NCBI RefSeq assembly: GCF_002286985.1
Contig: NZ_NSKC01000010.1
Span: 1 to 64,000 of the forward strand
Source: Halorubrum salipaludis
Lineage (GTDB): Archaea > Halobacteriota > Halobacteria > Halobacteriales > Haloferacaceae
DNA length: 64,000 nt
Direction: 5' to 3'
Shown: one piece after another, positions 11,680 through 56,592 of the stretch
How positions within the stretch are numbered: position 1 is the first letter of the stretch
How the letters are laid out: every line of letters begins with the position of its first letter
Program-made: the position numbers and the translations under genes
Notes under the pieces: generated by a model
What the model was told of the DNA's origin: nothing
Databases searched by the model: none
What the model saw: the letters and a program-made list of their open reading frames with translations, nothing else

Positions 11680-11741
11680 CCTCAATTATGTGGACAGTAC
11701 GTTGCAACTGCCAAATACGTTGCCGAACGCTACGCCGTCCT

Positions 11742-28185: not shown

Positions 28186-29418
28186 ATGACGCCCGACTCT
28201 TCACCCAGTTCTGTCGACGATCCACTCTTTGAATCCGGGCATCGCATCTTCGCGAACAAGGATCTCCTGAAAATCGGCCACGTGCCGGAGGCTGACCGGA
28301 TCGTCGGTCGCGACGAGGAAATCTCGAAGCTCGCGAAACGTCTCAACGGTGCTGTCCACGGGTACTCCCCAGAAAACGTGATGATCTACGGGAAAACGGG
28401 GACTGGTAAATCTCTCGTTTCGAAACACGTCTGCCAACGAGCTCAGAATGCCGCTCAGGATGGCGTCGAGATTGGAACCGCGTATATCGACTGTGCTGAA
28501 GACAACACGGAGACTCAAGCAATCTCCTCACTGGCCGCGAAGCTGAACGATGAATCTTCGACTGGAATCTCCGTCCCCCATACCGGCCTCAGTACGTCGA
28601 AATACTACAAACTCCTCTGGAAGACGCTCGACGCTCAATTCGATTCTGTGATCATCATCCTCGACGAGATCGATCTGATGAACGACGACAGCGTGCTGAT
28701 GAAGCTCTCGCGCGCTGAGGAGGCGGGAAAAATCGACTGTAGCGTCGGTGTCATCGCGATCAGCAACAAGATCCAGTACGTCGACAACGTGAACGAGCGC
28801 GTGAAAAGCAGCTTCCAGCACAAGGAGCTGTTCTTCAAGCCATACGACGCCAACCAGTTACGGGAGATTATGTTCAACCGTGAGGACGCCTTCCAGGACG
28901 GCGTCCTTTCCGAGGACGTGATTCCGCTCTCGGCGGCCTTCGCCGCGCAGGAGCACGGTGACGCTCGGAAGGCGATCGACATTCTTCGCCACGCCGGGGA
29001 GGTCGCCTACGAGGCCGGAGCAGAGCAGGTGACGGAGGAACACGTCCGCCAGGCACAGCAGCACGCCGAAAAGGACCGGTTCAGAGAACTCGTGAACGGC
29101 GCACCCACGCAGGCGAAGGCGGCGTTGCTGGCGCTCACGGAGCTGAGTGTCAACAGCAACGACGATGCGTTCCTCACGAGTCGGGTGTACGACCAGTACG
29201 AACGCATCTGCAACCATCTCGATATGGATATCCTCTCCGTCCGCCGGTTCCGCGACATCCTGAAAGAGCAAGCCTTCCTCGGGGTTGTCGAAATCGAGAA
29301 GATCAACAAGGGGAGTGCGGGCGGCATCCACCTCCAGAACCGACTCATCGAAGATCCCCAGGTCGTCCGCGAAACGATCCTCGAGGACAGCCGGATGCAG
29401 GATTGGACTCGCGAGTAG
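28186..29418 (+). CDS. Orc1/Cdc6 replication initiator
   Basis: This is a 410-aa AAA+ initiator. Walker A is YGKTGTGKS (about residues 68-76), Walker B ILDEIDLM (about 157-164), and sensor 2 is around HGDARKAIDI. The C-terminal 100 residues form a winged helix (TSRVYDQYERICNHLDMDIL, then SVRRFRDILKEQ), which binds ORB repeats. It is flanked on both sides by ORB-like repeats, so gene and origin form one unit, as in other haloarchaeal replicons. Length and motifs are complete. Confidence 0.93.
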   Translation: MTPDSSPSSVDDPLFESGHRIFANKDLLKIGHVPEADRIVGRDEEISKLAKRLNGAVHGYSPENVMIYGKTGTGKSLVSKHVCQRAQNAAQDGVEIGTAYIDCAEDNTETQAISSLAAKLNDESSTGISVPHTGLSTSKYYKLLWKTLDAQFDSVIIILDEIDLMNDDSVLMKLSRAEEAGKIDCSVGVIAISNKIQYVDNVNERVKSSFQHKELFFKPYDANQLREIMFNREDAFQDGVLSEDVIPLSAAFAAQEHGDARKAIDILRHAGEVAYEAGAEQVTEEHVRQAQQHAEKDRFRELVNGAPTQAKAALLALTELSVNSNDDAFLTSRVYDQYERICNHLDMDILSVRRFRDILKEQAFLGVVEIEKINKGSAGGIHLQNRLIEDPQVVRETILEDSRMQDWTRE

Positions 29419-29557: not shown

Positions 29558-31732
29558 CTACGACAGTTCGTTGGAGGCTCCGAACGAGGTCAAAACGGCG
29601 TCCCTCTCACCGGAGAGCTCTCGGCGAATATCGGTTCGGTCCCACCCGAGCGGTGAAAGCACGCTCTCGACTGCTCTGACCAGCTGCGTCTCGTAGTACG
29701 AGGCGTCGTAGGTCCCGATCGCTTCGTGGGCGAGGGCGACCCGGTCTCGCGAGGATTTCTCGTCGTCGACGACCACGTACTCGATATCCTGGCCCGGGTG
29801 GACTGCCAGGTCCTGCTCGCGGGCCCGTTTCAAGGCGGCCACGTTCTGGGTATTCTGTGAGTAGCCTTCCAGGGGCTTGGAGACACGGTTCCGCTCAACG
29901 AGCCGCTCTACTTCTACGTTGCCCGCCTGTAGTTCGCCGATTGCTCGTTCGAGCCGTCGGAGTACCGCGTCCGGTGACCGCGTGGCATCGAGCTGGTCGA
30001 GACAGTCCCGCTGGACGTCCTCGATGAACGGCGGGGTCGAGCGCTGCCGGGCTTCGATGCCTCTGACCTTGAAGTCGTCGTCGCCGGCGACCTTTCCGAA
30101 GTACTTCGTTAGCGCGCCGGCGTCGCTCTCGCGCTGCGGGACGAACGCCACCCAGTCGTAGTGGGCCTCGTGTTCGAGCCGAATCTCGACGCGTTCCGTA
30201 ATCTCCGTCGCAAGCGTCCCGAGGTCCTCGCGGTCCTCGTCGTCGACGTCAGGGTCCGGCGTCACCCAGATGGAGTCGACGATGCCGTGGACGACCCGCC
30301 AGCCGCCAGCTTCCAGCCGCTGTTTCGCCGTCAGCAGAATCTCGCGAGCGAACGCGTTGATTGCTTCGTGGCACTCGATGCGGCCGAACTTCGCGTTGCT
30401 GAACCCTTGATAGCCGAAGCAGGCGACGAGGATCCACTTCAGCGCACCCGACCGTCCCTCGAGTTCCGCCAGCCGGTCCTCGTCGGGGTTGTCCCGTTCC
30501 TTCTCGTGACGGATGGCCGCCTTAATCTCGTCGCGCGCGTCGATGATCGGCTGCAGCACGTCGACGAGGTAGCCCCGGTCGTCGCAGATCGAGTACCCGA
30601 GGCCGGGGATGTCGTCGCGGTCGCTGTGGCACTCACACCGGATGACGTCCGGCGAGACGTTCCGGGTACAGATGATGTTCGGGTACAACGAGGAGAAGTC
30701 GAGTTCATGGACGTTCTCGTGAAGCCCGACCTTGGGTGCGAAGATGAAGCCGCCACGGTCGGCGTCGTGGAGCGTCCCCATCGGCTTGTAGAACTCGTGA
30801 CGCCAGGAGTTCCATGGCACGAGGACGTCGCGGTCGTGGGCCTCGCAGATCTGGATCGCCGTGAGCACGTTCCCGATCGACGCCCACGCAAGTTCCTGGA
30901 CGGGCTTCTTTGAGCGCGACACGAGGTCGAGAACGCCGTCGAGGTTCGTCTCTCCGTAGAAGAACGTGTTCGACTCGTCGATAATCGCCCGGCCGGGCAC
31001 GTTGTACCGCGCCGGCGAGTGGCCGACGCGGCCGTAGCTCGAGTACGTCGACCGGCTCGCGAGCTGCTGGTAGTCGACGTCCGGCCACCGACTCAGCGAG
31101 AAGCCGTCGACGCCGGCGTCCGTCGCCATCTCGTACAGGGTCGGGACGATCTCGCTGGTTGAGCAGACCAGGACGTCCGGATCGTGCGCTTCGAGTGCCC
31201 CTTGGACGGCGGTCAGGATATCCGTCGGCGAGCCGGTGACGGTGTCGCCGGCGACGGACAGTTCCTCGTAGACGTCGTTGCTCGTTTCGGTCACCGGAAC
31301 ACTGAGTCGGAGCGTCGACAGCTCGTTCGCCGGCGTCGGATCGGCGCCGGTCTCCAGACAGTACCGAAACTCTCTCGAAAAGTCCACGTTGAAACAGGCG
31401 AGATCCCCGACTGGATAGTCCGACAGTTGACGCGCCTGCCGGGCGAGTGGAGTGACGCGATCGATGTGGGCAACGTCGACTGCGAGAACGGCCTCCTCGT
31501 CGCGTCGAAAGCCGGGGCGTCGCGCAACCAGTTCGGTCGCGACAACATCCGGGTGCTGGTCGTACACCGATTGGAGCGTCGTGAGGTCGATGTCGGACGC
31601 TGGGTCGCGAGCGGCGACGTAGAAGCGTGGGGTGTAGTCATCGCGCTCGGTCGCGACGGCGCCGTCGGCGGTTGCCTCCCACTCCAGGACGCGGCCGTCG
31701 TCCAGAAAGTCGATACTGAACGGCATCGTCAC
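29558..31732 (-). CDS. Divergent family-B DNA polymerase
   Basis: This is a 724-aa protein. Motif A is LDFSSLYPNII and motif B is KWILVACFGYQGF. At the motif C position it has HGIVDSIWV, where family B normally has YGDTDS: the first Asp is replaced and the second (catalytically essential in well-studied enzymes) remains. The N-terminal 340 residues correspond to the exonuclease-like region without an obvious complete DxE motif. Such proteins are annotated as type B polymerases on haloarchaeal genomes. Activity is uncertain. GTG 31732 overlaps the upstream gene (GTGA); an internal ATG at 31726 is possible. It is last in a three-gene operon with a RecA-like protein. Confidence 0.82.
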   Translation of the reverse strand: MTMPFSIDFLDDGRVLEWEATADGAVATERDDYTPRFYVAARDPASDIDLTTLQSVYDQHPDVVATELVARRPGFRRDEEAVLAVDVAHIDRVTPLARQARQLSDYPVGDLACFNVDFSREFRYCLETGADPTPANELSTLRLSVPVTETSNDVYEELSVAGDTVTGSPTDILTAVQGALEAHDPDVLVCSTSEIVPTLYEMATDAGVDGFSLSRWPDVDYQQLASRSTYSSYGRVGHSPARYNVPGRAIIDESNTFFYGETNLDGVLDLVSRSKKPVQELAWASIGNVLTAIQICEAHDRDVLVPWNSWRHEFYKPMGTLHDADRGGFIFAPKVGLHENVHELDFSSLYPNIICTRNVSPDVIRCECHSDRDDIPGLGYSICDDRGYLVDVLQPIIDARDEIKAAIRHEKERDNPDEDRLAELEGRSGALKWILVACFGYQGFSNAKFGRIECHEAINAFAREILLTAKQRLEAGGWRVVHGIVDSIWVTPDPDVDDEDREDLGTLATEITERVEIRLEHEAHYDWVAFVPQRESDAGALTKYFGKVAGDDDFKVRGIEARQRSTPPFIEDVQRDCLDQLDATRSPDAVLRRLERAIGELQAGNVEVERLVERNRVSKPLEGYSQNTQNVAALKRAREQDLAVHPGQDIEYVVVDDEKSSRDRVALAHEAIGTYDASYYETQLVRAVESVLSPLGWDRTDIRRELSGERDAVLTSFGASNELS

Positions 31733-33260: not shown

Positions 33261-35174
33261 TTACTTCACGTATTTGTCTATCAAGTAGTCGGTAATCTGC
33301 TCTTCGCGAGCCCGAATAAACGCCTGTGCGTTCTCCGGAGTCGGCTCGATATCGGGATACTGATTGACACGTTGGATACGCTCAGCCTCGGCGTTGCCGA
33401 GGTCGTCCAACCAGTCGTGGGGCCACTGGTCGCTTTTGATCTCTTCGTTCATCTCGTGTGGCAACAGCTGTAGATTCCCGATTCGATTAAGATCAACAGT
33501 CTCGCCAATAGATTCAGATACGGATTCTGCCCTGCTTTTCGGGTAGATGTGGTCAACCGAGTAGTCGCCAATACTGGTGGACGTCGATTGTGTATATGAT
33601 TCCTCAATGAGGCCGAGTACTGCCGTGACATCTGTGTCGGTAAATACAGGCTCTCCTGGGCTGCTCTCGTAACGAGCGTTGGCTACGACTCGACGGATAT
33701 CTTCAGCAGATGGGCTGATGTTCTCCGATTCAAATAGCTCCTCGCCTGGGAAAACGATGGGTTCGTCGGGTTCTGGTTCCCACTCGCGAAGGTATCGCAT
33801 CCAGTTGCGGCACTTGCCGTAGGTCAGAACTTGGTAGTACTTGTTCAGCAAGAGGGCTCTTGCGACGAACTGGAAAACACTCTCGCGATTCGCGTCGGAG
33901 ACCTCAGCATCCGGATTCTGGTAATAGAACACGCCAAGTAGCGCGAAGATGGGCATCGTGTTCATAACCGAGCTCCGAATCCCGCTCTCGATTACTGTCT
34001 GGAACGCCTTCTCGAGCGATGTCCGAAACCACTCGAAGCGCCGTCCGGCGACGACGGGCTCATTATACAGCCACCGCTCGCGCATCTCGTCCATTCTTTC
34101 TTCGTCGATACTGCTAAGATTGCTGCGGAGGAGGTCTGTTCCGACTAAGTATGCTGTATACCGGAGAAACAGCTTCCGGTCGATTTCTTGCTCATACTCA
34201 GGGAATTTCTGTTTAAATTCGTCAATCCAATCTTGGATGACCTCCCTAGGATTGATTCGCTCGTCCTCCTCTTCGGCGTACGGCCAATAACTCATGAGCT
34301 TTGAGAGGAGGAGCTGGTAGGGCTTCGGATCAGAGCCCTCCATGTTCAGCCTAGTGAATATCTCGGGAATTTCGGATCTATCCTTGTTCGTACTGTCCGT
34401 TTCGAGATCGTCCTGTAGAACGTTGCTCGTAATGTCTCTCGCGACGGCCATCGAAATACTGCGCAGCTGGTAGCGGGTTTCGTTGTCCGCCCTCAATTCG
34501 GCGGTGTCCACGTATTCATCGACGACTTCGCTAAGTGTTCTTCCCTCAAGTACCGTGGAGTTCCCGGAGCCCCCGTCGTTGCCTCCGTTCCATAACTCCC
34601 CGACCGGCATCCACAGGTGTCGCGTGTCGCCGGTCATGGTATAGCCGGTCTCGTCCGTTCCTCCAAACTTTCCTGTCGATTTGAACTCAAATCCGTAGTC
34701 GCCTGCTGTATCGTCGCGATCGTACTCTGGGTGACCGAATAGGTCAACACACAGCCGCTGGCCTTCCCAGTACTGGAGCTCATCACTGGGCTTCCCCCGT
34801 CCGCCATTATATACTGTTATTCCCCCCTCGACACCGATATAGAGCGAGTTCAAGCGCTGCTGGCCGTCTATAATCAGAATCTCCGGTTCTTTGTCTTCAA
34901 CCTCCTGATTGTAGAGGTCGTATTCCGCCAAAACTGGATCCGGTGGCCGATAGTCATCGGCAACATACATCCGTAGGAAATTATACGAGTTGTAGTCGCT
35001 GATATTGGCCGCTCGAACTCTCCATTCAGTTATGGCTCCGATTGGATAGTCTCGAATCAATGAATCGAACAGTTCCTCAATCTGCCTGGGATTCCAGACA
35101 AACTCCCGCTGGAGGCCGGGAAGAAAGATATGGTCGTTTATTTCAGACAAATAATCCGAGACCTGTCTGGACAT
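33261..35174 (-). CDS. GmrSD-like DUF262/DUF1524 nuclease
   Basis: This is a 637-aa protein. The N-terminal DUF262 region has LPGLQREFVWNPRQIEELFD and the signature IIDGQQRLNSLY (about residue 95). The C-terminal DUF1524 HNH-like region has SVDHIYPKS and NRIGNLQLLP (about residues 550-580). Fusions of the two parts are type IV restriction enzymes of the GmrSD/BrxU type that cut modified phage DNA. All signature motifs are present. It is a single gene with a palindromic promoter upstream. Confidence 0.85.
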   Translation of the reverse strand: MSRQVSDYLSEINDHIFLPGLQREFVWNPRQIEELFDSLIRDYPIGAITEWRVRAANISDYNSYNFLRMYVADDYRPPDPVLAEYDLYNQEVEDKEPEILIIDGQQRLNSLYIGVEGGITVYNGGRGKPSDELQYWEGQRLCVDLFGHPEYDRDDTAGDYGFEFKSTGKFGGTDETGYTMTGDTRHLWMPVGELWNGGNDGGSGNSTVLEGRTLSEVVDEYVDTAELRADNETRYQLRSISMAVARDITSNVLQDDLETDSTNKDRSEIPEIFTRLNMEGSDPKPYQLLLSKLMSYWPYAEEEDERINPREVIQDWIDEFKQKFPEYEQEIDRKLFLRYTAYLVGTDLLRSNLSSIDEERMDEMRERWLYNEPVVAGRRFEWFRTSLEKAFQTVIESGIRSSVMNTMPIFALLGVFYYQNPDAEVSDANRESVFQFVARALLLNKYYQVLTYGKCRNWMRYLREWEPEPDEPIVFPGEELFESENISPSAEDIRRVVANARYESSPGEPVFTDTDVTAVLGLIEESYTQSTSTSIGDYSVDHIYPKSRAESVSESIGETVDLNRIGNLQLLPHEMNEEIKSDQWPHDWLDDLGNAEAERIQRVNQYPDIEPTPENAQAFIRAREEQITDYLIDKYVK

Positions 35175-35193
35175 GGTCACCAGAACGGAAGAT

Positions 35194-40094: not shown

Positions 40095-43000
40095 ATGCTC
40101 TCACTTCCTCCGCTTGTCGATAACGCCAACAGAACATTAGAAGACGCTTACAAGCGGATTATTCCCCAGATTGAGGAGGGCCGTATCGCAACTGGGTACT
40201 TTTATCTCTCAGGATTCGACCTCTACAGGGAAGACCTTGAGAATCTGGCTGACCCCGAGGAACTCGGCCACGCTCCACTTCGGATCTTGATGGGTCGTCA
40301 GACGAATAGGGGAACTGCTGACGAAATCGGTGAGGGGCAGAATCTCAAAGAGGAGCTCAAAAGAGAGGTGAGAGAAAGCATCTCGGAGCTGAATAACGCT
40401 CAAATTGGCCGACTAGACCGGCTACGAGACTTTATCGCCGAAGGCGAGGTGAGCGTCCGTGTGCGAAATCCCGAAAACGGTTACTTCCACGCAAAGGGTG
40501 CCTCATTTCGAGCGCCACTCGAAGATGACGAAGATTGGGGACAAGACGAGGATGAAGACACCCGCCCATGCGCTACAGTTGTCGGCTCCTCGAACTTCAC
40601 CAAGAGCGGCCACCAGAACAACATCGAGCTGAACCTCACGAGTCAGGATCGACACAAGGCCGAAGCGTTCGAGGAGTGGTACGACAACCAGTGGGCCAAC
40701 GCCGAGGAGTTCAGTGAGGAGATCATCCGAATCATCGAGAACAGCGAGGAGTACCAGGACTGGAAGGAACAGCAGGAGGACGAGTCCGACCAGGAGACGT
40801 CATCCGAGGAGCTGGGCACGTATCTCGAACCGTTCGAGCTCTACAAGCTGCTTGCCTACGACGAACTGAGTGGGAACGTCAACATCCGTGACAGCCCACT
40901 GTACTACTTCCAGAAGCTCGGGTACGAGAGTGCAAAGGAAAAGCTCTCACAGTTCAACGGGTGCATCGTCTCCGACTCGGTCGGCCTGGGGAAATCATTT
41001 ATTGGCGGTGAACTCCTCCACGACTACCGCCAACGTGGCGACCACTGTCTCCTCATTGTCCCGGCCAACCTGACTGATCAGTGGGAAGACCTACTCCAGA
41101 ACGATACTGACGAAGACGGCAATCCGTACTTCGGGTTAGAGGTAGACGGCACACACCTTGACGTGATGAGTATCAGCAAGTTCCAGAATCTCTCCTACGA
41201 CGAGGTGCAGGACCTCAAAGACGAGTTCGACGTCCTGCTTATCGACGAGGCTCATCGGTTCCGGAACTACGGGAAGTGGCGACCGAATCCGGACCACGAT
41301 GATGACTACAAGGGGACGCGACGACACGCGAATCTCAGGCAGCTTCGCGGAAAGACGATGATTATGCTGACCGCGACCCCGATCAATAACAGCGCTACCG
41401 ACCTAAAGAACCTCATCAGCTTGTTCACCAGCCCGGAGGAACTTCGGAACAAGGCGTCACTCGACTTTGATGCGTTCGACGAATATATCGAACTCTCGGA
41501 GACGCGAAAACGCATCGCATCCGGGAAAGAGGAGGTCGGCGACGACGAACAGCAAGAAATCACCGAGCAGCTACAGCGACACTCCTCTGAGATTTCGAAT
41601 ATCCTGAACGAAGTGATGGTTCTCCGGACGCGCAAGCACGTCAAAGATCAGATTCAGGACAGCGAAGACTTCGAGATGAGCTTCAAGCCGCCGAAACTCA
41701 ACAAGCAACAGTACTCCCTGCCGGCGGCCTACCAGCCAATATATCGGATGCTTCCCGACGTGATGGACGCCCTCCACCTTCCTCACATCACAGTCAAAAA
41801 CCCGAAAGCAGGGAGCACGCTGAAAGCCCTCTACAAGCTGAACCTCCTCAAACGGCTCGAGTCCTCAACGTACGCGTTCGTCCAGTCGATCGAGACGCTG
41901 CATCAGAGCGAACGCCAGCTTCTCGGCCTTCTTGGTGAACTCCCCGAGGACGAAGACATCGATATGCTCCGAACTGTTCGGGAGGGGGATGACTCTGAAC
42001 TCGGTGACTTTGTCGAAGGAGCCGACGCTGCTGAAGATCTCGAACAAACACTCGAAGAATTCGGGTTCGATACCGCCGCTATTCAATCGGAAGAAGGAGC
42101 TGATACTGAGGGAGATGAACTGGCGGACGCCACCATCGGCGAGGTGAAGACGTACATCAGGGAGGACCTTACCCTTCTCTCGTATTTCCTCTCGCAGTTC
42201 ATCGGTGATGTCGCCCGTGATGCGGGTGATGTGAGCGATTATGCAGTTTCCACGCGGCAATGGCTCGCTGACCACGACGCTGGTGTCCTCCCAGATATTC
42301 CCGAAGAGGAGATGAATCCGATTCTCTACCCGAATAGTGACCTGAGCGAAGTCGACCCCGCCACACGCGACTTTTACGAGGCCGTCTTTTCACTCCGCGA
42401 GTTCCGCGATCCGAAGATCGACCGACTTGCAGATGTCCTCACGAATCACGATCAGAAGGTGCTCATCTTCACGCAGTATCGAGCAACTGCAGACTACGTC
42501 TATCGAACCCTCTGTGACAACGAGGATTCCCCACTCACAGAGGCGAACAGTGCCGTCGTCAAGGGTGGTGACGAGAATAAGCAGGACATCATTCAACGCT
42601 TTGCTCCCGAGGCGTCAGGCTACCAGCAAACGCTCGCCGAATCGGGGGACTCAGAGCTACAGTACGTAGTGGCCACTGACACGCTGAGTGAAGGGGTTAA
42701 TCTTCAGGACGTTCATGTTGTGGTCAATTACGACCTGCCGTGGAACCCGATGCGGATTGTCCAGCGTGTCGGGCGAGTCGACCGGATCGGGAGTACCGCC
42801 GAGAAACACGTCCACAACTTCTACCCGGACGGCGACATCGAGGCGGCGATTAAGCTCCTGAAACGCCTACAGGCAAAGATCAACGATATTGCGCTCATCG
42901 TCGGAAAGGAGAACAACATCCTCGATCCGAACGAAGACCAGATTCTTGAAAAGACAGGTGTAGACACGGAGAAGACTATCGGGGAATTACAGGTGGACGA

Positions 43001-43901
43001 GATCGAGGACTCTCTCCAGAAGTCCCGTGAAATTGACGACGTGAATGAACTTGACGACACGAGCAAGAATCCGCTCCTCCGCAATGCTGGGAGTAATGAA
43101 CACGCTGCGTTCGAGCGGTACCTTCTGAAGCGAGAACTGAACGAGGATTATGACCTGACTGCGGAAGACTTCGAGTACGCTGAGGACTTCTTTAATGACC
43201 CGCCCGAAGAACGAGAATTCCTCTACACGAATGTAACTGACCACGATGCCGGTCCTCGTCCGGGCGTGTTCGCCCTTGCCCACCTCTGGTTTGACGATGA
43301 TGACCACGAGTCCCCGCTTGGTCGCGTCCGTCGTGCTTTCTACTACAAGCCCTTCGCCGACGAGGTCAAAGAGCGGCCCGTGAGCACGCTCAATATTGAC
43401 CCTTCAGTTGACGGCGAACCGATTACCGGGCATCCAGATACGGTGTTATCGAATCGTGGTGAAATTCAAGCAGTGCTTAACGAGCGTCTTGAGGTGATTC
43501 GAGAGGGCCAAGTTGAGGGTGCTTTCAAACAGGGAGAGGCCTTCTCGAAGGAACAAGAGACGATCCTCGATTTCATCAGTCACTACGTTCAGCCGAATCA
43601 CGGCGATGAGCCGGCTCCTGTTGAAGAGTTCGAAACGATAGGAGAATGGGCTACCGACATCGAAGCGCGGCTGCAGGAGGTAAAGCTGGCGAACACGGAT
43701 GAAGACCGAATTCTACGGGAAATCTTTCGCCAGAACGAGCAGTACGACTCTTTCCCAGAGTGGCCGACCGGGGAGTTCCTCAGTCAGCTTGAGGAGTTCT
43801 TGGAAGAGAACGTCGAAGCCTCTACTGAATACCAGACGAAACTAATGGGAGAGAGTGATGTACAAGCGAAGCTCGTATGCTGGGGGGTTGTCGGACAGTG
43901 A
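40095..43901 (+). CDS. PLD nuclease-like and SNF2-type helicase fusion
   Basis: This is a 1268-aa protein. The N-terminal PLD-like domain has the HxK part in YFHAKGASF (about residue 135) and GSSNFTKSG with ELNLTS (about 165-180). The SNF2 ATPase has SDSVGLGKSF (Walker A, about 295), LLIDEAHRFRN (DEAH, about 382), MLTATPINN (motif III), KVLIFTQYRATADYVY, ATDTLSEGVNLQ and QRVGRVDRIGS (motifs IV-VI). Helicases of this kind accompany methyltransferases in DISARM- and BREX-like defence. It lies directly before the phase-variable methyltransferase locus, ending 9 bp from the inactive cassette. No drmA, drmB, pglZ or brxC genes are seen. Confidence 0.88.
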   Translation: MLSLPPLVDNANRTLEDAYKRIIPQIEEGRIATGYFYLSGFDLYREDLENLADPEELGHAPLRILMGRQTNRGTADEIGEGQNLKEELKREVRESISELNNAQIGRLDRLRDFIAEGEVSVRVRNPENGYFHAKGASFRAPLEDDEDWGQDEDEDTRPCATVVGSSNFTKSGHQNNIELNLTSQDRHKAEAFEEWYDNQWANAEEFSEEIIRIIENSEEYQDWKEQQEDESDQETSSEELGTYLEPFELYKLLAYDELSGNVNIRDSPLYYFQKLGYESAKEKLSQFNGCIVSDSVGLGKSFIGGELLHDYRQRGDHCLLIVPANLTDQWEDLLQNDTDEDGNPYFGLEVDGTHLDVMSISKFQNLSYDEVQDLKDEFDVLLIDEAHRFRNYGKWRPNPDHDDDYKGTRRHANLRQLRGKTMIMLTATPINNSATDLKNLISLFTSPEELRNKASLDFDAFDEYIELSETRKRIASGKEEVGDDEQQEITEQLQRHSSEISNILNEVMVLRTRKHVKDQIQDSEDFEMSFKPPKLNKQQYSLPAAYQPIYRMLPDVMDALHLPHITVKNPKAGSTLKALYKLNLLKRLESSTYAFVQSIETLHQSERQLLGLLGELPEDEDIDMLRTVREGDDSELGDFVEGADAAEDLEQTLEEFGFDTAAIQSEEGADTEGDELADATIGEVKTYIREDLTLLSYFLSQFIGDVARDAGDVSDYAVSTRQWLADHDAGVLPDIPEEEMNPILYPNSDLSEVDPATRDFYEAVFSLREFRDPKIDRLADVLTNHDQKVLIFTQYRATADYVYRTLCDNEDSPLTEANSAVVKGGDENKQDIIQRFAPEASGYQQTLAESGDSELQYVVATDTLSEGVNLQDVHVVVNYDLPWNPMRIVQRVGRVDRIGSTAEKHVHNFYPDGDIEAAIKLLKRLQAKINDIALIVGKENNILDPNEDQILEKTGVDTEKTIGELQVDEIEDSLQKSREIDDVNELDDTSKNPLLRNAGSNEHAAFERYLLKRELNEDYDLTAEDFEYAEDFFNDPPEEREFLYTNVTDHDAGPRPGVFALAHLWFDDDDHESPLGRVRRAFYYKPFADEVKERPVSTLNIDPSVDGEPITGHPDTVLSNRGEIQAVLNERLEVIREGQVEGAFKQGEAFSKEQETILDFISHYVQPNHGDEPAPVEEFETIGEWATDIEARLQEVKLANTDEDRILREIFRQNEQYDSFPEWPTGEFLSQLEEFLEENVEASTEYQTKLMGESDVQAKLVCWGVVGQ

Positions 43902-43909
43902 TTCGGGAG

Positions 43910-46216
43910 CTACGGTAGGGGCCCCTTCTGATCCACTAAATCATATTTCTCCAAGACCAGATCGAAGTACATCTCGTCCATCAGCTTCGGACTCTCAACG
44001 CGATGGAAGTCGTCGAGGACAAACTTCACGTCACGACGTTCCAGGCCATACGCGTGGAATGCGGCCGCGTCGATTTCAGCCTGTAATTCTCTGCGTTCTT
44101 GGTTTTCTACCGCTGCCTCGATTCCGCCGAGTCGCTCACGCATTTCTTTGAATTCTTTCCCGTAACAATTCAATCGGGCAGCTCGTTCAGCGATATAATG
44201 GAACCAATCATCTCCGTCGGTGAGCCGTGGTAGCTGGGATTCCAGCAGTTCGCGCTTGACGATGTGCGTCTCGACTTTAGTTCGCATCAGGAAATCGAAT
44301 GCAATGCTGTTCAGGAGTCCCGTTGCCACGAAGAGTTCTTGATCCGTAAATCGCCGGACGTAGGGTGACCGAAGTGGGGACTCTGTGAGGTGTTCCTCTT
44401 CCGGTTCAATAGCGAACGGCTTGAACGTGTTAATGGTGTGGAGACAGATGACGTCCTTCGGAAGTACCGTAGCTATTATCGTCCGCTCGTCCCGGGATCG
44501 AGAAACGTCTCGAATGCCGATTCGGTATTCAGTGCAATCGAGCAGGACATCTTCTTCCTCAAGTCCGTGACTACGGTGTTCTTCGAGTAGTTCATCTACG
44601 AATTGAACTTGAGACTTCCTCGTCTCTGAACCTCCAAAGGCGTCGTAGATTGCCCGTTTGAGATTACCCCTGTTGAATTTCTTCTCTCGAACACGGTACT
44701 GAGCACTATTCGGTGGATCGTACATCCCCCGACTCCAGTACTGCGGTCCATCTAACGCATCTGTGTGGGTATTATCGTACTGAAACTGATGAATATTTTT
44801 GCCGCCATAGACGGGATAGTCGGCCTCCTCCGGCGATGTCAGGAGCCTATCCTTATCAGTCGATTCAACGAACTCCTTAGTAAGCATATCAACTGTCCAA
44901 GCCTCCTCTAAATCTTCACCCAAGGAAGGCTGCTCAACTACCTTCTCCAAGACGCTTACTTCGATCTGCGAGGTGATGGATGGGAAGATTCCCCCTTCTG
45001 GAGAATAACTGACGAGTACGTCGCGCGGAATGTTGACTGCCTCATCTTCGATCCTGTAGACTATATCCATGTCACGTTGGTTGAATATCCCCCGAAGAGC
45101 TGATGTCTTCCCCCCATATTCGAACGTCAGAATCGCGAACCGGTATCTATCGTCGATGGCCTCAAAGATACCCTTGTTCTCGAACCCGATGAGATTCTCC
45201 ACGTCCGTATGGTCCAGCAGATGCATTCGGAGGTCTTTCCCCATTACTCCCCCGAAGATAGTACCGGGGAGGAGCAGACTCACCTTCACGCCGTCTCTGG
45301 AGAGTCGGAAGACCCGCTCAAGAAAAAGAGCTGAAAGTTCGTTCTTTGTCGGCATCGTTCGACCCCCCACCACCGGAGATTGGAGCTTATAGACATCTCC
45401 CTGCGTGAAGAAGTCTGCCTGAGTTTCCATCGACTCCTTGTAGTCCTCCCATTCCCACGCAACTTCTGGGTTTGAGAGGAGGTCTTCCATCACACCGTCC
45501 TTTTCCTCCGACGGATAGGTACGGAACTGCTCATCGTAGCGGATGAAGAAGTCGTCGCGATTCGCGTAGAGCATGTCCCACGGTGGATTCCCGATGAACA
45601 CGTCGAATCCACCTTTCTCGAAGACGTCGGCGAACTCCAACGGCCAGTGGAATGGGGACCACTCCCGAATTCCCTCGATCGTTATGTCGTCAAAGCCAGC
45701 GTCTTGGAATTCTCGCCGTAGGATTTCGTCAAATTTGTCCCGGTGTTCCTCAATTCTAACTTCTGCTTCTTTCCGCCATTCTTGAGCTTCAACACTGGTC
45801 TCCGCTTTCTTGTGCTTCTTGATGGCCTCTTTCACGTCCTCAAAGCGAGTTTTCACCTCCCAAGAATCGAGATCGCTGTCTCCGTCTTCGTTACTCTCGA
45901 TGTCGGTATCGAGTTGGCCGATTAGGCTGTTCCCTTGCCGTACGTTGAAATCGATATTGGGGAGCGGCTCAACCTCACTCGGTTCATCCTCGATATCAGC
46001 GACCATCGACAACCAGAGTCTGAGCTTGCAAATCTCAACAGCACCTTCGTCGATATCGACTCCGTACAAATTGTTGAGGATGACCGTTCGCTTTGCGTAC
46101 AGTGATGAGGAGCCTTTCCCTGACTCGATTTCCTCTATCTCTTCTCGCGTTCTGGATTCTAGCTCCCAGCCTTGCCCTTCAGCTTCGAGCCGCTGGAAAT
46201 ACTCAATGCATTGCAT
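43910..46216 (-). pseudogene. Silent alternative C-terminal half of the methyltransferase
   Basis: This is a 768-residue frame homologous to the C-terminal 782 residues of the gene at 46379-50032 (identical MQCIEYFQRLEAEGQGWE, then GVDI(D/E)(E/D)GAVEICKLRLWL), but it has no N-terminal region and no AdoMet motif I. It keeps motif IV (FIGNPPWDMLY, about residue 210) and its own target-recognition region, which differs from the active copy. Its 5' edge is exactly the 54-bp inverted repeat. I read it as a silent cassette that becomes expressed after inversion, giving a 1203-aa protein, not as a dead gene. Confidence 0.85.
46163..46216 (-). repeat. 54-bp inverted repeat, left copy (recombination site)
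   Basis: This is an exact match, in opposite orientation, to 47684-47737. The first 13 bases (ATGCAATGCATTG) contain the palindrome CAATGCATTG at the edge facing the invertible segment. Outside the repeat the two sides are paralogous but diverged; inside the segment there is no similarity. Confidence 0.92.
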
Positions 46217-47683
46217 CAACTGATCGTCTCGCTATTGGCTGTTTTCGACTTTATCTACGATTGCCGGTGAAATACGAGCTGCTTCTTACACTCTATTCAA
46301 CAAGTGTATTGACCAGTTCAGTCGAAAGCCACCCTCATATCCATCATTTTCATATGAGTAAAGCAACTTTCAGGTGGTATGACTCTCCAGCAGATCACCG
46401 CATCCGATATCGCGGGCTGGGACTCTTTACACGATATAGCGAACTCCTTTGAAAAACGCGGGCTCAAACCACGCCCGAAACTTGGGGGCGATAACGAACT
46501 CGTAGTCCAGCTTGATGATGACGAATTCATCGTCATTGTCAATGCTGGCCCCGGTGAGACTGCCACGGACTTCAAACCGGAAAATCGCTCACGGCATACC
46601 AACCTTGTTGCCACCAACGATTTCGAGACCTTCACCTTCATTACGCGAGTCCGAAGCTGGGAGGGGCAGCAGCACGGTCGAATTAAGCATCAAAAGATTT
46701 CGTTCTCGAAGGAGCAGTTCACGCGGGACAGCGGAGAGAAGAACACTATTCTCCAGAAGCTGAACTCGATCGAGTACGGTTCCTCTGCTGCGATATACGA
46801 TACGCTCTACGATACGCAACAGGTCGTCAAGGAGTTCTATGAACAGTTCGAGGAACTCCGGACAAATCTCATTCAAGAGGTTACAGGCATCCCTGACGAT
46901 CGTGGTGATGCGAAGCAACGATATGTGCAGGTCATTCTTGACCGGATGATCTTCCTATACTTCATCCAGGAAAAACGCCTTCTTGATCGGAACCCGAATT
47001 ACCTTCACGAACAGCCGAATGAAGTCGTTGACGAGGGTGGTGACCACTACGAAGAGTTCTACGAACCGCTCTTCTTCGAATACCTCGCAGAAGACAAACA
47101 GAACCCTGACTTCGGTAGTCTTCCGTACCTGAACGGTGGCTTGTTCGCAAGGAATCCTGTCGAAGAGGAGTTTGAGGACGCGAAATTAGGTGGCTCTGCC
47201 GAGGAAACGAACGGGCTCTTCGATGATATCCTCGACTTCCTCTCCGACTGGAATTGGAACGTCGACGAACGACTCGACATCGTCGATCCCAAGAACCTCT
47301 CCCCGGCGATCTTGGGCCACATCTTCGAACAAACGGTCAATCAGAAGGAGATGGGGGCGTACTACACACCGGAAGAGATCACGGGGTTCATGGCCCGCCG
47401 AACGATCCATCCGTATCTGCTCGATCAACTCAACGAGGCTGTGGACGCAGACTACGACGAGATTGACAATGTGTTCGGATTCCCCGTGCCCGAGGCAGAT
47501 AGTAGCGCAGAAGCTGTTGCCGATGGCGGAACCATAACTCAGCAAGTTCCAACGGAAAATGTCCAGACCAGCCATGTGGAGACTCTCTACCACGACATTC
47601 TGAAGGAAGCACACATTCTCGATCCCGCCGTAGGAAGTGGCGCCTTCCTGCTCGCCGCACAGGAGGTGCTGATGGACCTATAC
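46217..47683. mobile_element. Predicted invertible promoter and N-terminal segment
   Basis: This is a 1467-bp segment between the two 54-bp inverted repeats. It contains the presumed promoter (46217-46378, with no other gene) and codons 1-435 of the methyltransferase. Inversion would join these codons in frame to the silent cassette at 43910-46216. The frame works in both orientations because both repeat copies are read in the same frame. Confidence 0.82.
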
Positions 47684-50032
47684 ATGCAATGCATTGAGTA
47701 TTTCCAGCGGCTCGAAGCTGAAGGGCAAGGCTGGGAGTTGGAGAGTCGTAGCCGTGAAGAATTGGAGAGAATAGAAGAGGGACATGGAGGGGTCTCACTT
47801 TTCGCAAAGCGTTCTATCATCCTTCACAATCTCTATGGAGTCGATATCGAAGACGGGGCAGTCGAAATCTGTAAACTACGCCTGTGGCTGTCGATGGTCG
47901 CTGATATCGAGGACGAACCGAACGAGGTCGAACCCCTCCCAAATATTGATTTTAACATCCGTCAGGGTAACTCGCTGATCGGGTTCACTGAGCTCCAAGA
48001 AGTCGCACGGGAAGATGCTGGCGACGCGTCACTCTCGAATTGGGGTGTCGGAACTGCAGTCAAAGATCTCTATGAGGATGTCATCCGGGAACAGGACCGC
48101 CATCGAGCTGCGGATTCTGCTCGTGAAGCGCAGAATGCCCGTAAAATGGCTGAAAGAAAAATCGACACCCACAGCGAGGAGCTTAATGAGAAGATCCGCG
48201 ATCAGTTCAACGAACTTGTCGACGAGGATATTTCTCTTGAGGAATTAGAGGAGTTCTCACCGTTTCATTGGGTGCTCGAGTTCGCGACAGTCTATCGGGA
48301 AGGTGGCTTTGATGTCATCATTGGGAACCCACCGTGGGATGAGCTGAAGCCATACCGGACGGACTTCTTCCCAAAGTACGATACTGAGTTTCGTAGCCGC
48401 CCACCAGGTGAAAAGGACAAGAAGGTAGAGGAACTCTTAAAGAACCCTGAAATCGCTGCCGAATGGGAGAAGTTCCAGCGTGACAAGGAACGGCAAGCGT
48501 CCTATATTAACCAGAGTGGAGAATACGAGTACCAGACACCAAGCGTAGAAGGACAACAGGTTGCACGGACGAACGACCTGTCCCTACTGTTCTTTGAGCG
48601 AGTCTATGATATCGTCAGAGACGGTGGTTATGTTTCACAGTTGCTTCCAGGTCCGTTCTTCAATGCCGCCGCTGGAAAGGATTTGCGAGTACATGCATTG
48701 GAAGAGTCTGAGATTCAGAGTATCATCGGATTTGAAAATCGCGGTATCTTCTCCGATATAGACACTAGGTATAACTTCGGTATCGTTACGCTCCGAACAG
48801 AGGGAAGCACTGATACTGTCCACGGAATCTTTCATCAGACTTCCGTTGATGTTCTTCGGTCAATTGACGATGTAGCTCTAGAAATTCCAGCGCGAATCCT
48901 CAAAGAGTATTCTCCTGGAGCTCGAATTTTCCCCAACATCGAGGATCAGCAGGAGGTTTCAGTGCTGGATAAAATTCTCCAGACACCACCATTGGCGACT
49001 GAAATTGAAGGTGCTTGGCGAACGGTCTTGTACAAGGAACTGGATCGAGGACGAGATCGGGATAGATTCATCGAAGACGAATCCAAAGGGGATTATCCGG
49101 TCTATCAGGGAAAGAACATTCACCAATTCTGTTATGAGTCGACTTACGTCGACGATCTCAAACCCATCTCTTTGTGGAGTGTCGATGAGGATAACGAGGA
49201 GCTGAGCGCGAAGCGTCGCGTTCGAGAGAAGAACTTCCGTGCCCGGGACGATGCGATCAGCCTGAAGAAGGCTATCTACAACAAGTTCGCTGATGACCCT
49301 GAGTTCCGCCATCTCCCGGCAAGTTCGCAGAAGCGGTTCGTCAATCGGTTGCTAACAGAAGAATTCGACCGCCCCGAACTTTCTTTGGAGGACATCCGTC
49401 TCCATAGTTCTGAATACCGGCTTGTGCTCCGTGAAGTCGCTCGTGCAACCGACGAACGGACGCTCATCGCGGCTGTAATCCCACCGGGTGGAGTCGTCGT
49501 CCATACGCTGTACACGGTTCGGCCATTCGAAGCAAACCCTACCAAGGACGACCTTTCGGAATTCCCGATGCATAGTGCTTACGACCGTGTTTTCTCTGAT
49601 AAGGAGCTTTTCGTCGCACTTGGGCTGATCAACAGTATCCCGTTCGATTTCTTGATGCGGACAAAGGTCGATTCCCACGCCTCGAAGTACAAGTTTGAGG
49701 AGTCACAGGCTCCTCGTCTCACTGACGGCGACGACTGGTTCCACTACATCGCTGATCGAGCGGCGAAGCTCAACTGTTATGGTGAGGAGTTTGCTGAGAT
49801 GCGTGAGCGACTCGGCGGGATTGAGCCGGCGACGGATATGGAGACTCGGCGTGAACTACAAGCCGAAGTCGATGCGGCCGTGTTCCACGCATATGGGCTG
49901 GATGAGGAGGAAATGCAGTTCGTTCTTGATGACTTTCATCGGGTGTTGAATCCTCGAATTATGACGGAAGAGTACTTCGAAAAGGTTGCTGAAAAATACG
50001 CTCATCTTGGGGACGTAGGGCCGATGGAATAA
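46379..50032 (+). CDS. Phase-variable Eco57I-type DNA methyltransferase
   Basis: This is a 1217-aa protein and the expressed form in this sequence. The N-terminal 400 residues are a type IIG/PglX-like helical region (EFYEQFEELRTNLIQEVTGI, QVILDRMIFLYFIQEKRLLD). AdoMet motif I is ILDPAVGSGAFLLAA (about residues 413-427) and motif IV is IIGNPPWDELKPY (about 645-657), as in N6-adenine methyltransferases. The C-terminal 400 residues hold the target-recognition region and a helical end. The 54-bp repeat crosses codons 436-453. With the PLD-SNF2 helicase it could form a restriction-like defence system whose specificity switches by inversion. I see no separate nuclease motif inside it. Confidence 0.9.
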   Translation: MTLQQITASDIAGWDSLHDIANSFEKRGLKPRPKLGGDNELVVQLDDDEFIVIVNAGPGETATDFKPENRSRHTNLVATNDFETFTFITRVRSWEGQQHGRIKHQKISFSKEQFTRDSGEKNTILQKLNSIEYGSSAAIYDTLYDTQQVVKEFYEQFEELRTNLIQEVTGIPDDRGDAKQRYVQVILDRMIFLYFIQEKRLLDRNPNYLHEQPNEVVDEGGDHYEEFYEPLFFEYLAEDKQNPDFGSLPYLNGGLFARNPVEEEFEDAKLGGSAEETNGLFDDILDFLSDWNWNVDERLDIVDPKNLSPAILGHIFEQTVNQKEMGAYYTPEEITGFMARRTIHPYLLDQLNEAVDADYDEIDNVFGFPVPEADSSAEAVADGGTITQQVPTENVQTSHVETLYHDILKEAHILDPAVGSGAFLLAAQEVLMDLYMQCIEYFQRLEAEGQGWELESRSREELERIEEGHGGVSLFAKRSIILHNLYGVDIEDGAVEICKLRLWLSMVADIEDEPNEVEPLPNIDFNIRQGNSLIGFTELQEVAREDAGDASLSNWGVGTAVKDLYEDVIREQDRHRAADSAREAQNARKMAERKIDTHSEELNEKIRDQFNELVDEDISLEELEEFSPFHWVLEFATVYREGGFDVIIGNPPWDELKPYRTDFFPKYDTEFRSRPPGEKDKKVEELLKNPEIAAEWEKFQRDKERQASYINQSGEYEYQTPSVEGQQVARTNDLSLLFFERVYDIVRDGGYVSQLLPGPFFNAAAGKDLRVHALEESEIQSIIGFENRGIFSDIDTRYNFGIVTLRTEGSTDTVHGIFHQTSVDVLRSIDDVALEIPARILKEYSPGARIFPNIEDQQEVSVLDKILQTPPLATEIEGAWRTVLYKELDRGRDRDRFIEDESKGDYPVYQGKNIHQFCYESTYVDDLKPISLWSVDEDNEELSAKRRVREKNFRARDDAISLKKAIYNKFADDPEFRHLPASSQKRFVNRLLTEEFDRPELSLEDIRLHSSEYRLVLREVARATDERTLIAAVIPPGGVVVHTLYTVRPFEANPTKDDLSEFPMHSAYDRVFSDKELFVALGLINSIPFDFLMRTKVDSHASKYKFEESQAPRLTDGDDWFHYIADRAAKLNCYGEEFAEMRERLGGIEPATDMETRRELQAEVDAAVFHAYGLDEEEMQFVLDDFHRVLNPRIMTEEYFEKVAEKYAHLGDVGPME
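47684..47737 (+). repeat. 54-bp inverted repeat, right copy (recombination site)
   Basis: It lies inside the methyltransferase gene, encodes MQCIEYFQRLEAEGQGWE, and is identical to the reverse complement of 46163-46216. The palindrome CAATGCATTG is at 47687-47696. It marks the junction of the constant N-terminal and variable C-terminal parts. Confidence 0.92.
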
Positions 50033-50081
50033 CTACTGAATTAGCGCTACACTTGGTTCCCGGTCATCAGTGGGTCCAGCT

Positions 50082-50753
50082 TTACTGATGAATACTGTCC
50101 AGCGCTCGCCGGGTCATCGCTCCATCGACATTCAGATATTGACGTGCAGTCGTGATGTCTTCCCAACCGAACATTGCTCGGAGTGCGGGGAGATCCAAGC
50201 CTCTTCCTGCATGGTACGACGCTGCTGTGGCACGTAGTCCGTGTAACGAGGTTGCGTCGTTGGACAGTTCTGGAGACAGTTCAAGGGCAGTCTCCAGCCG
50301 TCGTTGTAAGGTCGAGAACGAATATGGCCAACCGCCATGTTCCTTAAGTAATAACTCAATCGCGATTCGGACTCGATACGAAAAATGGTACGGCACTGTT
50401 CGAGACGCGGCCTCTGTTTTCGGGAGCCAATAGCGATCTGCGAAGCTTTGGAAGTCTTTCTCGGGATTGTGGTCCATTCGTTGTTTCACTGCTTGCCGAC
50501 AGTAGCCACAGATACCGCCGTCACGTCCCTTTGTACAATCTTCTTGTTTAGGAATTTGAATCATCTGACGCTCTGGGTCAATCCACGACGTAGACAGGTG
50601 CGTCGTTTCTCCTGGCCGGAGTCCCAAACGTCCCCCGAGGAGGATAGCCGCTCGTGTCTCTAGACGTCTTTGGGTATCTGATATCCGCCCGGCTCCTTCT
50701 AACAATAGTTCGAACTCGCGTTCGCTAAGAGCCCTTTCTCGTGTTGCTTCCAT
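50082..50753 (-). CDS. Tyrosine recombinase, candidate invertase for the methyltransferase
   Basis: This is a 223-aa protein with the catalytic core only: LGLRPGE (Arg I), LHGLRATA (His-x-x-Arg box), a GWEDITTARQYLNV segment (catalytic Tyr in ARQY), and a CGYC pair in an inserted loop (about residues 78-81). There is no N-terminal SAM-like domain, although the start at 50753 could be earlier (GTG 50831). It is convergent with the methyltransferase gene, 49 bp away. The position makes it the obvious candidate for flipping the 46217-47683 segment. Its role in host or plasmid integration cannot be excluded. Confidence 0.8.
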   Translation of the reverse strand: MEATRERALSEREFELLLEGAGRISDTQRRLETRAAILLGGRLGLRPGETTHLSTSWIDPERQMIQIPKQEDCTKGRDGGICGYCRQAVKQRMDHNPEKDFQSFADRYWLPKTEAASRTVPYHFSYRVRIAIELLLKEHGGWPYSFSTLQRRLETALELSPELSNDATSLHGLRATAASYHAGRGLDLPALRAMFGWEDITTARQYLNVDGAMTRRALDSIHQ

Positions 50754-54150: not shown

Positions 54151-56592
54151 ATGTCGGACGAGGCTGACGATTTGTATGATAAGTACATCGACTACGATGG
54201 CAGAGATCTCGATACCCGGAATGTCGGTGATGGGAAGGTAGTTCGGCCGATTACGGCCGAGAATTTCGAGATGGAGAAACGGACTCTGGGGGAGGTCCTC
54301 ACCGATCAGAAGTTCAACGTACCAGAGTACCAGCGACTGTACTCGTGGAAGAACATCCACCACGAACAGTATTGGTCGGACATCGAGCAGTTCGTGAATG
54401 CCGACCTGGTCGCTGACCGACGCGAGGTGTCGGACGTGTTCTTCAGCTCGATGTACTTCGCGGTCAACGACGACAAACAGGTGTATGAGGTCATCGACGG
54501 CCAACAGCGCCTGACGACGACCCACCTGCTGTTGCGCGTCCTTATGGAGCACCTCGAGGACGTCGACCCAGCTTCTATCGAGGACGATACCCTGGCGGAG
54601 TTCCGGGACTACGGGATCGGGCGAATCACCGATATCCTCTATGTAGAGGAGTCGTTCGGCAAACGTGAGCCTCGGCTCACGCTGAACAAACACGACGCTG
54701 AATTTTTCAAAGCCCTCATGATGGGGCCCTCCGCCCAGGTGGACTACCTCAAGAACGAGGCCGACTTCAGCATCCACGGGAACAACAGCGATGCAGTACA
54801 AGTCTCGGAATGTCTGGACCGGTTCGGCACCACGGACGATGACCTCGCGGACTTGGATACTGACTCGCTCTCCTTGGGGGCGTTCTTCAAACTGTACCGC
54901 TCACACCGGCGGTTGTTGAAGGCCTACGAGTTCTACGACGAGAAGATCAGCGGCGTCGTCGCCGACGCCGACACGCCGGACGAGACGGTGCGAGCGCTCG
55001 TGAACATCCTCAACTACGTCTATAACTCCTACCACGTCGGGGAGTACCTGATTCGAGAGGCGGAGTCGGACTTCCGGATGCAGATATTCGAGATTTTGAA
55101 CGACCGTGGCGTCGATCTGACGAAGATCGACCGTATCAGGGCGGCGGTCGTGAACGCCTTCTTCGATACCGACGTGAAAGACGAGTACGTCGACAAGTGG
55201 GAGGACATCGTGGTGGCGTTCGCAACCGATGGTGACGCCATCGACGACTACCTCTCGATCTATTTGAGTATCGTCGACGATGGCATCGACAGGATTGGTG
55301 ACGCGAGCGCCGAACTGACCAACGCCTTCGACACGAGGAACATCGACTCGGATGTCGTCCCGCGCCTTCGGAATCTCGATGAAGCGAAGGCCTTCCTCGA
55401 CTACGCGCACGACCTCGTTGACTACTACCAAGATATCACAACCACGGAACTCGCCGCTGAGGACCTTGAGTTAGCCAGTCACCGAGAGCAGTGTCGGGAA
55501 ATCCTTGTTCGCCTCAATAACCAACAGATGGACCAGTGGCGGCCATTCGTCCTGGCGCTCTACTATCACACCAATCCTGAATCGGAACGGGATGCAGCAC
55601 AGTTCCACCGCGTACTAGAGACCATCGAGAAACTCAACCTGCGACGCCTCCTCATTTCTGAACGCCCGAGTATTTTCCGCGAGGTCTTCATCGAGGCCGT
55701 CGAGGAGTTCAACCTCGCCCCAACCGCCGACGCCACTCCAGATAGTGTGTACGAGGCTTCTCGAGAGTATCTCATTACCGAAATGCGTTCCTCTACGCCA
55801 ACGCTGTTCGGCGACCGGTTCGTCGATACGGTCGTTCAGACGCAGTCCTGGAGTACCGGAACGGCGCGACTGCTCTTCGGGAAGATCGCCCAGGATCACT
55901 TCGACGACAGTAGTCGTGCCGTCGAGCGAGACCTGAACATGGGGAACATCCATCTCGAACACGTCCTCCCGCAGACTCCCGTCAGCGACCCGGAAGACCC
56001 GACGTGGCTTCGGGAGTTTTTCAAACTCGACTCGGAGCCGGACATCGAGATCGCGTCAGAGATCGAACGCTATACCGAGCTGGTGCAGCGCTCTGATCTC
56101 GACGAAGAGGAGGAGCGACTGAAAGACAATATCTCGGAGTTCATCACGCAGGGCTTCATCGACGATATCGGGAACTTCCTCCTGCTCCGTGACACCGATA
56201 ATATCGGGGCGAGTAATCGGCCACTCGCCGAGAAGATGACGCAGTACTACTCCGAGATCGACGGTTTCGCCAGTATCTACCCCAATCGGTATTTCACGGC
56301 CGAATACGGCAACGTCGATCGCGAATCCCTTGACAAACTCCGTGAGCAGCACGATTGCGGTGACGTTTCGAATGTGGACGCCGATGTAGTGGCGTATTTC
56401 AACTCCTTCTGGACCTACGAGACTCTGCAGGATCGACGAATCGAGCTCCTCTTGGATATTCTGTCGACGCTTGGGTTCGATTCGTTTGAGGACGAGTTCG
56501 GGATTGAATCCGACCAAGATGAGGTACGCCACGAAATTCGAGAGAAGACGGACCAAGAGTTTGAGAAACGTCTGTCCGTCCGATCGCTTTAA
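54151..56592 (+). CDS. Second GmrSD-like DUF262/DUF1524 nuclease
   Basis: This is an 813-aa protein. The DUF262 domain has FNVPEYQRLYSWKNIHHEQY and VIDGQQRLTTTHL (about residue 113), an arginine in a DIFEILNDRG-like segment (RMQIFEILNDRGVDLTKIDR), and the DUF1524 HNH part with HLEHVLPQTP and IGNFLLLRDTDNIGASNRPL (about residues 605-690). All signature motifs are intact. It is the larger of two such genes in the window and the last of the defence island. It is likely to act on modified or foreign DNA. Confidence 0.85.
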   Translation: MSDEADDLYDKYIDYDGRDLDTRNVGDGKVVRPITAENFEMEKRTLGEVLTDQKFNVPEYQRLYSWKNIHHEQYWSDIEQFVNADLVADRREVSDVFFSSMYFAVNDDKQVYEVIDGQQRLTTTHLLLRVLMEHLEDVDPASIEDDTLAEFRDYGIGRITDILYVEESFGKREPRLTLNKHDAEFFKALMMGPSAQVDYLKNEADFSIHGNNSDAVQVSECLDRFGTTDDDLADLDTDSLSLGAFFKLYRSHRRLLKAYEFYDEKISGVVADADTPDETVRALVNILNYVYNSYHVGEYLIREAESDFRMQIFEILNDRGVDLTKIDRIRAAVVNAFFDTDVKDEYVDKWEDIVVAFATDGDAIDDYLSIYLSIVDDGIDRIGDASAELTNAFDTRNIDSDVVPRLRNLDEAKAFLDYAHDLVDYYQDITTTELAAEDLELASHREQCREILVRLNNQQMDQWRPFVLALYYHTNPESERDAAQFHRVLETIEKLNLRRLLISERPSIFREVFIEAVEEFNLAPTADATPDSVYEASREYLITEMRSSTPTLFGDRFVDTVVQTQSWSTGTARLLFGKIAQDHFDDSSRAVERDLNMGNIHLEHVLPQTPVSDPEDPTWLREFFKLDSEPDIEIASEIERYTELVQRSDLDEEEERLKDNISEFITQGFIDDIGNFLLLRDTDNIGASNRPLAEKMTQYYSEIDGFASIYPNRYFTAEYGNVDRESLDKLREQHDCGDVSNVDADVVAYFNSFWTYETLQDRRIELLLDILSTLGFDSFEDEFGIESDQDEVRHEIREKTDQEFEKRLSVRSL

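Follow-up and report, generated by a model that had tools for sequence, protein, structure and literature searches.

Methyltransferase invertons are familiar from bacteria, phase-variable pglX being one of them. Inversion of type I hsdS genes with a tyrosine recombinase has been described, e.g. in Streptococcus pneumoniae (PMC4948785), and in the haloviruses PhiCh1, PhiH1 and ChaoS9 the tail-fibre module is invertible and is accompanied by Int1 (PMC6471424). At the centre of the type-2 BREX-related (BR) systems stands a DUF499 ATPase, with DUF3780 in addition (PMC12839542). Concerning archaea, a read-based survey of DNA inversions covered six archaeal datasets and detected no inversion in them (PMC5903667), and a review of phase variation names archaea as a future direction (PMC11868660). 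No invertible methyltransferase was found in the searched passages of a review of archaeal tyrosine recombinases and of a survey of archaeal RM systems.

We analysed a window of 64,000 nucleotides (the whole stretch of DNA studied, from Halorubrum salipaludis). It very probably contains a restriction-like defence system of haloarchaea with two genes, for an adenine methyltransferase and a PLD-SNF2 helicase, in which the methyltransferase is switched by inversion. A 1.47-kb segment with the promoter and the N-terminus inverts between identical repeats in the coding sequence, so that one N-terminal part is joined, in frame, now to the one and now to the other C-terminal half. In the mechanism that we propose, the adjacent tyrosine recombinase would catalyse the flip at a core inside the initial 25 bp of the repeat, the swapped C-terminal half would alter the methylated motif, and the PLD-SNF2 helicase would restrict DNA according to the specificity of the methyltransferase. 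The benefit would be sub-populations which differ in their restriction/modification specificity against viruses and plasmids.

Organisation of the locus and its genes

The methyltransferase gene expressed in the window's orientation (REC-side phase) is located at 46379..50032 on the + strand and encodes an Eco57I-type adenine methyltransferase of 1217 aa, with a C-terminal half of 782 residues; motif I (DPAVGSG) is found at 47621-47641 (residue 415) and NPPW at 48326-48337. The invertible segment (46217..47683, 1467 bp) comprises the upstream (promoter) region and codons 1-435. It is bounded by two inverted repeat arms of 54 bp: one on the PLD side (46163..46216, - strand, core at 46192-46216) and one on the REC side (47684..47737, + strand, codons 436-453, core at 47684-47708). 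The alternative C-terminal half is located on the - strand (43910..46216; 768 aa from the ATG at 46216, 769 from a TTG) and is silent, without a promoter-bearing N-part in this orientation. Motif I is confined to the N-part of the methyltransferase and NPPW is present in both C-terminal halves. The tyrosine recombinase (50082..50753, - strand) counts 223 aa with the start that is annotated for its homologues, the ORF being open to 50831; it is convergent with the methyltransferase and its stop codon lies 49 bp past that of the methyltransferase. The PLD (HxK...GSxN)-SNF2 helicase (40095..43901, + strand, 1268 aa) completes the locus.

The two arms are perfect 54-bp reverse complements. On their inner side identity falls to background abruptly, and on their outer side are the homologous C-terminal halves, which are ~77% alike. 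A run of 54 identical bases at 77% identity has p ~7e-7 per start (0.77^54), so the repeats exceed what shared ancestry would give. In-silico inversion of the segment yields an uninterrupted in-frame protein of 1203 aa. The shortest exact core of the repeats among the relatives measures 25 bp (ATGCAATGCATTGAGTATTTCCAGC), and it showed no dyad convincing enough to locate the strand-exchange point. The structural claims of an earlier note on this DNA, made from the sequence alone, agree with this layout: the coordinates and identity of the 54-bp copies, the lengths of the 1217-aa gene with its 782-residue half and of the 768-aa half without motif I, and the 49-bp distance to the recombinase (stop to stop) were all confirmed, and the predicted same-frame product of 1203 aa was reproduced exactly.

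The methyltransferase belongs to the Eco57I type (PF07669) and has both motifs I and IV. The helicase contains HxK and GSxN as well as PLDc_2 and SNF2/Helicase_C (SF2) domains and is the partner at 47/51 related loci, which upholds the linkage that the earlier note had suggested. We think it rather probable that this helicase carries out the restriction, with a specificity set by the methyltransferase; this is inferred, and no nuclease activity has been shown. A simple search did not find a PD-ExK pattern in either half of the methyltransferase, and the AlphaFold2 model of the whole methyltransferase (pLDDT 47) is too poor to judge a nuclease domain.

Known multi-gene systems were considered for the locus and rejected. 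Concerning BREX, the whole genome has no match to PglZ, and the PglX model NF033452 scores 63 bits against a curated cut-off of 500; the frequent annotation of the silent half as "BREX-1 PglX" is misleading, because PglZ is missing from the genome and the PglX scores are far below the cut-off. Concerning DISARM, DrmB (DUF1998/MZB) is matched only on another contig (C12). The DUF499 ATPase of type-2 BR is found only on contigs C10 and C5 and not at the locus.

The same window also contains two GmrSD-type and one Mrr-type restriction genes (33261-35180, 54151-56592 and 10312-11685), which form a defence island that also includes Cdc6 (28186-29418) and a family B polymerase (29558-31732). A scan of viral contigs found nothing, and phages contain only distant relatives. 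One contig that is binned as Nitriliruptoria (Actinomycetota) carries this haloarchaeal system at 83-87% identity (L007, PUKE01000032.1), which is probably a binning error.

Inversion of the segment and the associated recombinase

In-silico inversion makes the window colinear with the plasmid NZ_CP053943.1 (L063) of Halorubrum salinarum (99.26% over 11,414 bp); an alignment of this plasmid to the native window needs a reversed block, which is bounded by the repeats. The orientation in Halobaculum sp. CBA1158 (L070) is also opposite to that of the window, and Halobaculum saliterrae has two loci, of which L014 is opposite to the window and L005 is the same. Two divergent recombinase lineages exist, each with both orientations. 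In Halobellus rufus one promoter-side flank is joined to both C-terminal halves, on two contigs. The draft assemblies of Halosimplex salinum and Natrialba sp. SSL1 contain contigs that break off precisely at the repeat, which is what reads in support of both branches would produce.

The Halorussus vallis plasmid NZ_CP100003.1 (167,465 bp, "complete") has repeated ends (1-46183 = 121286-167465, 99.95-99.99% identity), and the only structural difference between these is an inversion of the segment between the repeats. Such ends are the signature of an untrimmed circular assembly, a reading that is backed by NZ_CP100403.1 of Halorussus aquaticus, where the same type of overlap (1-46673 = 265787-312460) is found without an inversion. 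Since the untrimmed ends of the H. vallis plasmid differ by the inversion, its data held both orientations in one culture; the alternative, a true duplication followed by inversion, requires the inversion equally. With an untrimmed overlap of ~46 kb the true sizes would be ~121.3 kb for NZ_CP100003.1 and ~265.8 kb for NZ_CP100403.1.

The segment does invert: both of its orientations are found in nature, and one culture held the two together. The phase variation claimed in the earlier note is borne out by near-identical plasmids with both orientations and by the assembly of a single culture. The window's own assembly has only one orientation and the second was not seen there, which would suit old rearrangements fixed in separate lineages without any ongoing switch. 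We give hardly any credence to this explanation, because near-identical sequences differ in orientation, both forms are present in one assembly and exchange keeps the arms identical. The arms are near-identical inside a genome and different between genomes (0/20000 random re-pairings were as similar in a permutation), which is concerted evolution by exchange.

The recombinase matches Pfam Phage_integrase and contains the motifs R (GLRPGE), HGLR, GW and QY, in which R, HxxR, W and Y, as judged by eye, are placed as expected. Among 51 loci with the methyltransferase, the recombinase, an inverted partial C-terminal half and an exact inverted repeat that spans the N-part are found together at all the recombinase loci (16/16, recombinases 75-100% identical), and no recombinase-less relative has a partial copy or an inverted repeat (0/35). 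These 51 loci are related and do not represent 51 independent trials; also, a contig end truncates L124, one of the 35. In the tree of the N-halves the recombinase needs at least two gains or losses. In the second recombinase lineage (loci L006/L074, L016/L076, L075/L154 and L077/L153) the repeat is GGGGTGGACATTGACCAGGGGGCGGTC, exact over 27-80 bp; it lies deeper in the gene by ~150 bp, and the partial copies start at this second site.

The adjacent tyrosine recombinase is likely to be the enzyme that flips the segment, at a core no further than 25 bp into the repeat, and we hold this inference with good confidence in the absence of an experiment. The repeats occur only with the recombinase (16 of 16 loci vs none of 35), their inner edge is always the same, the other recombinase lineage uses a different site, and the exactly identical stretch can be as small as 25 bp, a short length for homologous recombination; all of these speak against the possibility that the inversion is real and is produced by general homologous recombination of the similar C-terminal halves, with the recombinase as a bystander or mobility gene. 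That possibility, which we consider unlikely, can draw on the long stretches of the C-terminal halves near the repeats (~77% identical), on a study of pneumococcal spnIII whose title describes recombination there as independent of all known site-specific recombinases (PMC6620402), and on more distant recombinase relatives without inverted repeats. These relatives (56-68% identity) stand beside other methyltransferases and have no exact inverted repeats of at least 18 bp, which leaves room for a different primary role of the recombinase; the recombinase family may generally be linked to methyltransferases.

Some of the relatives (L080, L081, L082 and L083; 59-65%) adjoin Eco57I-type pairs or DUF1156 pairs, without exact inverted repeats. 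At L096:9496-12057 an exact 51-bp inverted repeat flanks a tyrosine recombinase of ~40% identity, possibly an unrelated invertible segment, and at L095:8411-11160 several exact inverted repeats (42-57 bp), built of a repeated ATGGACGCGGTAAGTACGTCCGA-type unit, are found around a recombinase relative.

The two C-terminal halves and specificity

The C-terminal halves are 64-95% alike at residues 436-535, have 33-62% identity at ~536-1060 and are mostly 65-85% alike at 1070-1190; over the last ~150 residues they are 66% alike. The ~500 residues from the catalytic motifs to the C-terminus are ~40% identical between types and strongly conserved inside each type. The claim that the halves are similar outside a target-recognition region stands in part; the divergence is broad (~536-1060) and not limited to a compact domain.

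Comparison between genomes gives a dN/dS of 0.03-0.15 for each of the two halves, in the silent as well as in the fused state, and none of the 20 compared copies contains a stop codon. Strong purifying selection maintains both as intact sequences.

Two exceptional loci were also observed. In Halobaculum roseum an IS1595 transposase interrupts the silent half (L103:10371-11255), and inversion would give a truncated enzyme. The fused gene of L153 (G338) stops after ~514 residues; pieces of the C-terminal half lie ~10 kb from it, the PLD helicase is missing from the neighbourhood, and the copy is decayed.

Halorubrum sp. PV6, which lacks the recombinase, has a fixed enzyme of 1203 aa with a CB-type half (94% aa), so the 1203-aa-type combination exists as an ordinary gene. 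In other carriers (L065, L066, L071 and L106) the CB half is kept at ~98% and the REC-side half is a different one (57%), so the C-terminal halves behave as exchangeable cassettes.

A TaqI_C (TaqI-like) specificity domain is found in one family member (L144) and maps to approximately residues 1013-1128. The model of the C-terminal domain is good (pLDDT 92), and a Foldseek search of it against the PDB gave no significant match and no known specificity domain; the grounds for assigning a specificity domain are therefore TaqI_C in one relative and the divergence. Judged from the sequences, the region of the C-terminal half very likely contains the target-recognition domain. We expect, with considerable confidence, that the swap of the halves changes the methylated motif, an inference made without motif data for either form. 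The lack of motif data also leaves room for an inversion whose two products methylate the same motif, the switch being neutral or regulatory only; the likeness of the last ~150 residues (66%) and the fold search without a known specificity domain would agree with it. This is improbable in our view, as ~500 residues are only ~40% identical and yet strongly conserved per type, TaqI_C maps into the C-terminal half in a relative, and the halves vary between genomes as cassettes.

Comparison with known systems

We judge this switch to be an archaeal variant of the bacterial methyltransferase-specificity invertons, and new within the literature searched, where no archaeal precedent was found. Direct evidence of inversion is available in culturable haloarchaea, with two natural orientations for a comparison of methylomes, and the mechanistic question arises of how the helicase partner spares the host genome when the specificity switches. 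With moderate confidence we favour the broader reading that this is a widespread, plasmid-borne and recombinase-driven specificity switch of an archaeal two-gene restriction-like system, in which a family of tyrosine recombinases co-evolved at least twice with sites in the methyltransferase coding sequence (the two repeat sites) and also allows C-terminal specificity cassettes to pass between plasmids. If this is true, it would represent an archaeal phasevarion and a switchable immunity.

In the type-2 BR systems, too, an N6-adenine methyltransferase is accompanied by an effector helicase of the HKD(PLD)-SNF2 kind (PMC12839542), but DUF499 is absent from this locus and no switch is mentioned in that work. 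Type IIG and DrmMI are the best PADLOC models for the methyltransferase; the differences are that no PD-ExK pattern was found here, that a separate adjoining gene encodes the helicase-nuclease (its nuclease role being inferred), and that there is no DISARM set. The halovirus module resembles the locus in its haloarchaeal tyrosine recombinase and in inverted partial copies which swap protein ends. However, the gene that it affects is a structural one of a virus and the recombinase is part of the invertible region, whereas here a plasmid or chromosomal defence gene is concerned and the recombinase lies outside.

The earlier note had inferred a haloarchaeal equivalent of phase-variable pglX and hsdS; the locus works alike, but it is not a BREX pglX. 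With the bacterial hsdS and pglX invertons it shares the inverted partial copies, the inverted repeats and the nearby recombinase, as well as the prediction that methylation would change in specificity and not be turned on and off. In contrast to hsdS, it is the promoter-bearing N-part of a single-chain methyltransferase that inverts here and not a separate S subunit. The locus also differs from the bacterial invertons in its archaeal host, its PLD-SNF2 partner and its two lineages with two separate repeat sites.
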